From NCBI GenBank assembly GCA_016208495.1, contig JACQXX010000103.1, forward strand, positions 1 to 64,000: a stretch of 64,000 bases of DNA, in the 5' to 3' direction. The stretch's first letter is position 1. Each line of letters begins with the position of its first letter. The stretch comes from Acidobacteriota bacterium. GTDB taxonomy: Bacteria > Acidobacteriota > Blastocatellia > Chloracidobacteriales > Chloracidobacteriaceae. Below the pieces are notes generated by a model. The model searched no databases. It saw only the letters and a list, made by a program, of their open reading frames with translations, and was not told the DNA's origin. The position numbers were made by a program, and so were the translations under genes. This document shows, piece by piece, positions 5,824-52,435 of this stretch.

Positions 5824-5976
5824 GTGGGGCTGAAGAAGACGGGCTGAAGGCTTGGGGCTGAAGACTCGCAAGCTCGGAGCAAAGGAAGGGATGAAGGATG
5901 AGGGATGAAATAAAACCAATTCTTCAACCCATTCTCTTCAGTCCAACTTCTTCAGCCCGGTGTCTTCAGCGCTCAA
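5824..5976. repeat. GGGCTGAAGA/TCTTCAGCCC inverted-repeat spacer
   Basis: Spacer between two convergent genes. The left half contains several GGGCTGAAG words, the right half the complementary CTTCAGCCC words, so a transcript could fold into a long imperfect hairpin that may terminate both genes. A GGGATGA heptamer run and a segment ending in AATAAAACCAATTCTTC lie in the middle and recur almost unchanged at 16680-16720. Confidence 0.75.
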
Positions 5977-16599: not shown

Positions 16600-16779
16600 C
16601 TACGGGCTGAAAAAACCTCGGGCTGAAGACATCGGGCTGGGGGCTGAGGGCTGAAGACTCGCAAGCTCGGGGCAACTCAAGGGATGAGGGATGAAATAAA
16701 ACCAATTCTTCAACCCAATTTCTTCAGCCGGTTTTCTTCAGCCCGAAGTTTTCAGCCCCCAGCCCTCAGCCCTAGTTTT
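16600..16779. repeat. GGGCTGAAGA/TCTTCAGCCC inverted-repeat spacer
   Basis: The spacer upstream of proA is filled by the same repeat family as 5824-5976. The left side has GGGCTGAA/GGGCTGAGG words, the right side CTTCAGCCC/TTCAGCCC words. A GGGATGAGGGATGA run and the AATAAAACCAATTCTTC segment sit between. The block could form a long hairpin separating the 16780-17927 pair from proA. Confidence 0.75.
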
Positions 16780-27454: not shown

Positions 27455-27600
27455 AGCAGGGCTGAACAAACCGGGGCTGAAGAAAGTGGGCTTGGGGCTG
27501 AAGAAAGTGGGCTGAAGATTCGCAAGCTCAGGGCTGAAGAAATTGGGTTTAATACCCTGAGCCCGAAGTCTTCAGCCCAATGTCTTCAACCCGATATCTT
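27455..27600. repeat. GGGCTGAAGA/TCTTCAGCCC inverted-repeat spacer
   Basis: Third copy of the hairpin spacer family, between two convergent genes. GGGCTGAAGAAAGTGGGCT words on the left face AAGTCTTCAGCCC and ATCTTCAGC words on the right. The right edge overlaps the last codons of the selenoprotein gene. Confidence 0.75.
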
Positions 27601-27912
27601 CAGCATTTGAAGAAATCGTTGGAGGATCCCGCCGCCACTAGACGTTGATTTTGAAACCTCGGATTGGGCCTGTTCTAACGGAGTGCCAGTTTCAAGTGCC
27701 GTGATCAGGTCAATTACTTCGTTGTTGTTTGGAAAACGTCCAAGACGTCGTTTGGAAAAGATCAATTCATCATCGCGGTAGACTTCAAAAATCCCGCCTG
27801 AAAGTTTGACCAGGGTTGCCGTAACACCAAATTTTGCTTTAAGTTCTTCTGCCAACCTGACAGCTTTGGGATAGTACCCTCAAGACCCACAGTATTCGAC
27901 TTTGAGTTTCAT
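27586..27912 (-). CDS. SelW/Rdx-family selenoprotein (in-frame UGA read as Sec)
   Basis: Thioredoxin-like redox protein of the SelW/SelT/SelH (Rdx) family. Reading from the ATG at 27912 (GAGG about 10 bases upstream) gives MKLKVEYCGSU at the N-terminus, where the TGA at 27880-27882 occupies the second redox position of the CxxU motif. The reading frame then continues in full family register: LAEELKAKFGVTATLVKLSGG, then FEVYRDDELIFSKRRLGRFP. Total length is 108 residues including Sec11, with an unusual Gly/Ser-rich C-terminal extension. Gene callers that treat TGA as stop would lose the first 19 codons and the active site. The hairpin right after the UGA supports selenocysteine insertion. No sel genes lie in the window, so the machinery must be elsewhere. 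A broken Cys-type gene is the alternative, but everything else is intact. Confidence 0.85.
27841..27882 (-). promoter_or_regulatory. Candidate bacterial SECIS element
   Basis: Immediately downstream of the UGA, CTGTC (27863-27859) pairs with GGCAG (27853-27849) around an AGGTT loop. The loop guanines fall about 25 nt after the UGA. Position and the AGGU-type loop resemble the SelB-binding hairpin of the E. coli fdhF mRNA. A short lower stem AAG/CTT is possible. Seen by eye only. Confidence 0.6.
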
Positions 27913-28019
27913 GGAAAATTACCTCGAAATGTAAAATGGTTGTGAATGATTTTCCGGGAAAGTGATTGAAACCATTCCAACTATAGCACTTCTTTTGAAT
28001 GTGAGGAGTTGAAATTGCC

Positions 28020-28676
28020 GTGACCGCACCAATTAAGATTGTGACGGAAAGTCAATTATCCAATGCCGAGTTTCTGGAACGCTATGCCCGTGAAGGATGC
28101 ATCGGGTTAGCTGGCGGGCCATCGCTGGTTGATAAAGCCATTCGCCGGGCACAACGCCGACAACGCCCGGATCGAAGCTGGAGCGAGTGGGGGCATGCCT
28201 TCTTTTTTCAAGGCCGGCGACTGGATGGCCACCATTGGGTGATCGAATCAGACCTGGAATTCCATCGCCGAAACATCCGGCTTGGGGTTCAGGAAAATCG
28301 AATTACCAAATACCATGACGAAGAGTACTTTCAGTCACTGGCCATTCTGGATTTTCATTTGGAACCCGCCCAAATCAGTACCTTGATTTCAAGCGGGTTG
28401 GAACTGGTGGCAACCAATACCAAATATTCGCTGCGCGAAATCCTTGGTACCTACCTGGCCTTACATAACATCGGCGGGCGAGCCACCGCCAACCGCATGC
28501 AGAAAGAGCGCTCGCTCTTTTGCTCAGCTTTTGTCCGGCATTTGTTCTCGAAAGTCGGCATTGATATTGCCCCCCAGGTCCATGAAAAGCACACCACTCC
28601 GGAAGATATTGCTCAAACCACTATCCCCCATACTCTGTATCTTTTGCGTCGTGAGGTCGCAAGCCTGAAAGATTGA
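28020..28676 (+). CDS. YiiX-like permuted NlpC/P60 papain-fold protein
   Basis: A 218-residue protein with the circularly permuted NlpC/P60 arrangement: an early His region (SEWGHAFFFQGRRLDGHHW, followed by VIESD) and a late nucleophile region (SLFCSAFVRHLFSKVGIDI) carrying the probable catalytic Cys. Such proteins cleave amide or ester bonds in cell-wall peptides or lipids; the substrate here is unknown. No signal peptide is evident, which argues for a cytoplasmic location. The start is a GTG with GAGGAG upstream. It is followed by a TerB-like gene. The fold call rests on motif order and not on alignment. Confidence 0.65.
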   Translation: MTAPIKIVTESQLSNAEFLERYAREGCIGLAGGPSLVDKAIRRAQRRQRPDRSWSEWGHAFFFQGRRLDGHHWVIESDLEFHRRNIRLGVQENRITKYHDEEYFQSLAILDFHLEPAQISTLISSGLELVATNTKYSLREILGTYLALHNIGGRATANRMQKERSLFCSAFVRHLFSKVGIDIAPQVHEKHTTPEDIAQTTIPHTLYLLRREVASLKD

Positions 28677-29402: not shown

Positions 29403-29463
29403 GTTCTTTGGTCGTTTGAAGGAGGAATTAGGGACCCAGAAGAAAATAAAGTCCCAATGATCC

Positions 29464-29600
29464 AGGGTTCAGGGTTCAGGGTTCAGGATTTGAGGCGATG
29501 AAGCAACGGGTTCCGCTCAAGATGAGTACCAGGAAACCGGCGGTTACGGCTCAAGTTGGATTAGCCTACCCTGAACCCTGAACCCTGAACCCTGAACCCT
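29464..29600. repeat. Paired AGGGTTC / GAACCCT heptamer arrays
   Basis: A run of AGGGTTC units (29464-29487) faces a run of CCCTGAA units (29568-29600) about 80 bases away. The unit is seven bases long and the arrays are in inverted orientation, so the spacer can fold back on itself. Shorter runs of the same heptamer lie at 1-20, within 24780-24807 and at 46735-46768. Confidence 0.8.
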
Positions 29601-29628
29601 GGTGGTATGATATTTCCATCCGACTCCC

Positions 29629-46777: not shown

Positions 46778-46954
46778 TATTTGTACCGGCTGGTGAGGTC
46801 ACTTGAGTACTGAACACTCACTCGGATGAAACTGTTGGAAAAGGAAGCCGCTCTGATGCTATAAAGACCGGTTTCTTTCCCACGTCACTTTCTGAGTGAT
46901 GTCCTACCATACTGAGTGCATATCCTGTACCACAACCAGGAAATACTAGTCAAC

Positions 46955-47275
46955 AGACTCGGCCATCAAGGGCCGAGCTTGAGTCGTCAAGCCACGACGC
47001 CATCCTGCCGGATGGCCCACCGTGGTTGCATTGGTTCAAGTTCCGGTTGACCAGACCCCCGTGCAAATCACGGGAACCGATTGGGAAGAATCGATAGGTA
47101 CCTGCGGATGCCGCCTCAGTCCGCTGCGCTACGGTGACCGGTTAAACAGGCATGGGAGTCAGTGCCAGTGCCGGTCACGGCAAACCTTCCCAAATCCGGT
47201 CGAGAGGACGTCGAATCCGGTCGGCGGTCACAGTCAGACCGGTACGCACTACCCGACGCAAGTCGGTGCGTGACG
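46955..47275 (+). ncRNA. Candidate structured RNA of about 320 nt
   Basis: A GC-rich stretch without a credible gene that folds into consecutive short perfect hairpins. These are CTCGGCC/GGCCGAG (46958/46971), CCACG/CGTGG enclosing GCCATCC/GGATGGC (46992-47025), CCCGTG/CACGGG (47058-47074), CGATT/AATCG with GGGAAG loop (47078-47093), and GTGACCGG/CCGGTCAC (47134/47171). The last is ACGCA-CCGAC-GCAA-GTCGG-TGCGT (47244-47271), with a GNRA loop and a 4-base bulge. Length and stem density suggest a large bacterial RNA such as a HEARO/omega-RNA relic, but I could not match a consensus. Strand and ends are guesses. Confidence 0.45.
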
Positions 47276-49251: not shown

Positions 49252-49385
49252 AAGGAAAGGATGAGGGATGAGGGATGAAAAAATCTTCCCATCTCGTTCA
49301 TTTCGATTCAGAGAAAGAAAATGACTATCTCATTGACTATATTAGGCTTGAGTTCTTCATTCTTCATTCTTCATTCTTCATTCCG
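49252..49385. repeat. Heptamer tandem repeats after proB
   Basis: GGATGAG units (49258-49277) are followed by a unique stretch and a run of TTCTTCA units (49352-49383), both with period seven. The same GGGATGA heptamer appears at 5890, 16680 and, as CATCCCT, at 52404-52432. Confidence 0.75.
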
Positions 49386-52311: not shown

Positions 52312-52435
52312 GTGACAAGGGGACAAAGGGGACAAGGGGACAGGTGACCAGATGACAGGGTGACAGAGTGACAAGGTGACAAGGTGACAAGTGGATTTTC
52401 TTCATCCCTCATCCCTCATCCCTCATCCCTTAAAG
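52312..52435. repeat. GGTGACAA octamer and CATCCCT heptamer arrays
   Basis: Starting just after the kinase stop codon, GGGGACAA and GGTGACAA words repeat with period eight (52314-52391), then CATCCCT units with period seven (52404-52432). The arrays lie between two convergent genes. Confidence 0.8.

Follow-up and report, generated by a model that had tools for sequence, protein, structure and literature searches.

A SelW-like selenoprotein gene with a predicted selenocysteine codon in a Blastocatellia acidobacterium

On the minus strand of the 64-kb stretch of acidobacterial DNA analysed here (the window), the frame from 27912 to 27586 is open except for a single TGA at 27882-27880, raising the question of whether this codon is a nonsense mutation in a degenerate gene or is read as selenocysteine (Sec). 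An earlier note on the same DNA had read the locus as a SelW-type selenoprotein; that reading is supported by the protein family, the active-site motif, the Sec machinery, the conserved TGA and a hairpin that covaries among relatives. From these sequence comparisons we infer Sec insertion, and the locus very probably holds a functional SelW-like, Rdx-family selenoprotein gene of a Blastocatellia acidobacterium whose internal UGA is almost certainly read as selenocysteine.

Reading frame, product and predicted fold

Direct reading places the ATG start codon at 27912-27910, the only internal stop at codon 11 and the terminal TGA at 27588-27586, with GAGG nine bases before the ATG, so that the coordinates and ribosome-binding site given in the earlier note stand (Table 1). 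With TGA translated as U, the product is 108 residues long, Sec being residue 11, and begins MKLKVEYCGSUGYYPKAVRLAEELKAKFG..., in which C8-G-S-U11 forms the active-site motif and U occupies its second active-site position. The translation and the Pfam Rdx match both agree with the earlier claim that read-through restores MKLKVEYCGSU and puts CxxU where the family has its redox motif. Pfam Rdx (PF10262) matches residues 3-71 (E 5.2e-19; 68.7 bits against a cut-off of 22.6), and the NCBIfam model TIGR02174 (CXXU_selWTH) scores 59.6 bits against a cut-off of 34.2. The top NCBIfam model is NF041051 (SelTWH_Campy equivalog), at 85.3 bits; this is 2.7 bits short of its cut-off of 88, and the product is therefore not assigned to the Campylobacter-type SelTWH (seleno)protein. 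The gene is the sole Rdx member of its genome. An ORF call under table 11 returns only 89 aa, starting from TTG 27855, and the gene is in that sense hidden from naive gene callers as had been proposed, but it is not hidden from the Pfam and NCBIfam models, which already recognise the read-through product.

Table 1. Features of the window, with coordinates, strand and basis of assignment
Feature	Position	Strand	Basis or remark
SelW-like (Rdx family) selenoprotein gene, predicted	27586..27912	minus	TGA=U translation; PF10262, TIGR02174; relatives in two sister genera
GAGG ribosome-binding site	27922..27925	minus	direct sequence reading; 9 nt 5' of ATG
In-frame TGA, predicted Sec, second active-site residue of the CGSU motif	27880..27882	minus	TGA conserved in relatives; dN << dS 3' of TGA
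Candidate bacterial SECIS hairpin, stem CUGUC/GGCAG, loop AGGUU	27849..27863	minus	conserved position and covarying stem in relatives
C-terminal tail, approximately SGGGILQRFLQMLKISG	27589..27636	minus	alignment; predicted helix, low confidence, pLDDT 53-57
Gene of 218 aa, divergent from the SelW gene	28020-28676	plus	no Pfam match; beside the SelW gene in G009 too
Short-repeat arrays	27457-27604, 5827-5969, 16604-16758, 29463-29601, 49353-49383, 52312-52430		
HEARO RNA (RF02033)	46949-47215	plus	Rfam, 95 bits, E 4e-18

Profile matches in the PDB include MIEN1, mouse SelW and bacterial SelW-related proteins. A structure model, built from 16 sequences with U entered as C, reaches a pLDDT of about 97 in its core, against 88 for the whole chain, and places the CxxU motif between strand 1 (residues 3-8) and helix 1 (residues 14-28). 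In a structural search, the top 23 PDB matches were all SelW-family proteins (2fa8, E 7e-7), followed by thioredoxins. The product is thus predicted to be a small thioredoxin-like protein with the SelW fold and, by analogy with the general role of SelW-like proteins, is likely to act in thiol-dependent redox reactions. A tail similar to the one in Table 1, of the form GGFLxRLL, is present in both relatives from the same family (alignment). It is conceivable, though rather unlikely, that the three genera of Chloracidobacteriaceae represent a SelW subtype in which this conserved amphipathic tail would recruit the selenoprotein to a membrane or a partner; no description of an amphipathic-tail variant of bacterial SelW was found in the literature.

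The window also holds arrays of short repeats, several of them intergenic, built from GGGCTGAAGAAA-type and other heptamers with a period of 7, 14 or 21. The GGGCTGAAGAAA motif, allowing at most one mismatch, occurs 13 times against 0.6 expected. The HEARO RNA match listed in Table 1 is to an RNA that accompanies an HNH endonuclease ORF.

The hairpin 3' of the UGA

SelB-dependent, hairpin-guided decoding of UGA is the established bacterial mechanism of Sec insertion. The earlier note had placed an AGGUU-loop hairpin about 25 nt past the UGA; such a hairpin does lie just 3' of the codon, but nearer than proposed, its loop beginning 21 nt downstream (22 nt with the A-U pair closed). The stem has 5-6 bp, the loop is AGGUU or GGU and the spacing is 21-22 nt, which fits bSECIS criteria, and the loop G and the spacing agree with the published bSECIS model. 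The folding energy of the hairpin is no better than chance when compared with shuffles (z -0.55 to +0.26), and of 3000 synonymous recodings, 526 match or better the fold of the native sequence. The energy is -10 kcal/mol for a 42-nt stretch and -4.4 kcal/mol for the hairpin alone, where the bSECIS threshold is -7.5 or less. The hairpin of this one sequence is weak evidence for a SECIS, and the weight it carries comes only from the relatives.

In 18 distinct aligned hairpins, chosen by eye from loci with a clear hairpin, 90 of 90 cells at five stem positions are paired, against 92.9% in shuffles, and none of 500 shuffles reaches 100%; these permutation tests ignore relatedness. Both sides of the stem have changed at three of the five pairs in this set, and shifting the partner by one column lowers pairing to 32-37%. 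One covarying pair is silent on both sides: it joins the third bases of two codons that mostly specify alanine, and all 20 of 20 distinct sequences pair there (permutation p ~0.002, relatedness ignored). Some of the distant class members (L044-L048, L051, L053) have a mismatch at the third stem pair.

These data bear on the possibility that the selenoprotein is real but the hairpin is a by-product of protein conservation, Sec insertion being directed by another element. The stem codons encode a conserved A-x-x-x-A, the single-sequence energy is not significant, and in Cys-form relatives constraint from the protein sequence preserves part of the hairpin. However, the covarying third positions are free at the protein level, and the loop G and spacing match the bSECIS model, so that we give this alternative little probability.

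With the hairpin taken as a bacterial SECIS, the ribosome would begin at ATG 27912, and SelB-GTP-Sec-tRNA(Sec) would bind the hairpin just 3' of the UGA and decode codon 11 as Sec. Translation would then run on to the final UGA at 27586, which is taken to terminate the protein. In the predicted product, strand 1 would end in a Cys-Gly-Ser-Sec active site, providing a selenol/thiol pair for redox chemistry.

Conservation of the TGA and the Sec machinery

Homologues in two other genera of Chloracidobacteriaceae are 64% and 47% identical to the product, and both contain a single TGA, in the codon position seen here; two genomes from another family of the same order carry a more distant gene that also has CxxU. 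Across the class, the gene was matched in 31 of 162 genomes, and TGA was present at the CxxU position in all 30 distinct loci inspected; one further class match (G045), outside those 30 loci, is without an internal stop. A sample of the phylum yielded 126 Rdx matches in 115 of 396 genomes, with exactly one TGA in 114 matches and none in 12, three of which start past the site; neither TAA nor TAG occurred in any of the 126. Twenty of the phylum regions were fetched and read as CxxU (14), CTQC (5) or, for one short region, gave no reading. Scanning public genomes with the single protein as query returned no loci, and scanning with a three-sequence alignment returned seven, all CxxU; they lie in acidobacterial MAGs, Blastocatellia among them, in a Desulfuromonas MAG and in one MAG titled Actinomycetota. 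One of the seven (L059; JAIBAN010000014.1, Blastocatellia bacterium) has the same sequence as G009, a relative from the same family as the window. The contig titled Actinomycetota (L060; JAAFHI010000679.1) bears a scaffold name of Acidobacteria and is syntenic with the window at this locus, and its record title is probably wrong. In the relatives sampled, SelW occurs mainly in its predicted Sec form. The Cys forms (CTQC; L066-L070) occur in a few families of the phylum and score far above the Sec forms with Pfam Rdx, which suggests that they are a separate lineage. In seven small genomes (2.8-3.7 Mb) of a sister genus the SelW-like gene is absent, with SelA in all seven and SelB above the cut-off in six.

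Codons 12-85, 3' of the TGA, gave dN 0.25 and dS 1.44 against relative G009 (dN/dS ~0.18) and dN 0.52 and dS 1.85 against relative G008 (dN/dS ~0.28), ratios that are rough because synonymous sites are near saturation. No such shortage of amino-acid change was seen in the other two reading frames, and these estimates indicate purifying selection on the part of the gene 3' of the TGA. The neighbourhood is also kept, with the divergent gene in G009 and HesB-like and TerB-like genes in G008.

A degenerate gene, with the TGA as a plain nonsense mutation and the rest of the frame either a pseudogene or an 89-aa protein from TTG 27855, would account for the standard ORF call and for a hairpin that is by itself unremarkable. 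It is nevertheless highly improbable, as the TGA keeps its codon position in 30 of 30 class loci and in the 14 TGA-containing loci read across the phylum, TAA and TAG were never met in the phylum search, selection has been purifying before as well as after the TGA, and truncation would lose strand 1 and the active-site Cys. The pseudogene reading was rejected on the conservation of the TGA; relatives retain an intact gene, not the frameshifted pseudogene that the earlier note had named as counting against a selenoprotein.

The genome (8.4-Mb assembly, 99% complete, 177 contigs) was searched for selA, selB, selC and selD, the absence of which would likewise have spoken against Sec insertion, and the complete set is encoded. 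Profile searches found SelA (479 aa, 555.5 bits), SelB (653 aa, 370 bits) and SelD (346 aa, 398 bits; L010:1396-2436, minus strand), the last having an active-site motif that, read directly, carries Cys and not Sec, and tRNA-Sec was found with Rfam (63 bits) and ARAGORN (anticodon TCA). Within the 64-kb window, the Rfam scan gave no SECIS or tRNA-Sec match. Formate dehydrogenase, sought as a further Sec client, gave 13 partial matches, none above the cut-off and none with an internal stop. SelA is encoded in 147 of the 162 class genomes, 30 of 31 with an Rdx match versus 117 of 131 without; since SelA is so frequent in genomes lacking a match, its association with the gene is uninformative, and no conflict was seen. 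Reading of the UGA as Trp, Cys or another residue through a suppressor tRNA or near-cognate decoding, the latter known in general, is highly improbable and was rejected on TGA conservation and the Sec machinery, given the complete Sec set of the genome, the Cys found at this position in homologues without TGA (e.g. CTQC) and the covarying hairpin at SECIS spacing.

Relation to known SelW-like proteins

The predicted selenoprotein resembles bacterial SelW-like selenoproteins (PF10262, TIGR02174) in size, thioredoxin-like fold, CxxU at the end of strand 1 and a predicted Sec form with a candidate bacterial SECIS (PMC1794560, PMC2398784), and nothing essential differs apart from about 30 more C-terminal residues past the Rdx domain. 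Mouse SelW (2npb) and human MIEN1 (2ljk) share a homologous domain and fold. The element of eukaryotic SelW lies in the 3' UTR, whereas the candidate bacterial SECIS here lies inside the coding region, and the motif of MIEN1 is CxxC. Cys-form Rdx proteins (2fa8, 2obk, 3dex and the CTQC forms of the phylum) share the fold and the motif position, with Cys replacing Sec (of these, only the CTQC forms were read).

SelW-like selenoproteins with CxxU and a bacterial SECIS have been reported from the Sargasso Sea (PMC1088965) and from bacterial genomes (PMC1794560), and in the GOS table they are the largest selenoprotein family, with 427 Sec versus 56 Cys forms (PMC2398784). A 2006 survey found few Cys homologues of SelW-like proteins in Sec-using organisms, in agreement with the relatives examined here, and listed four selenoproteins across all Acidobacteria (PMC1794560). 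Bacterial SelW-like selenoproteins are thus abundant and were on record by 2005 at the latest, and the present gene is ordinary in kind; because it belongs to a known family, the result is an annotation correction and not a new kind of selenoprotein. Knowledge of Sec decoding is unchanged. The analysis adds a well-supported selenoprotein gene for Blastocatellia, a group on which the literature consulted offers little, and many Sec-form SelW genes are likely shortened in the same way by ordinary gene calling.
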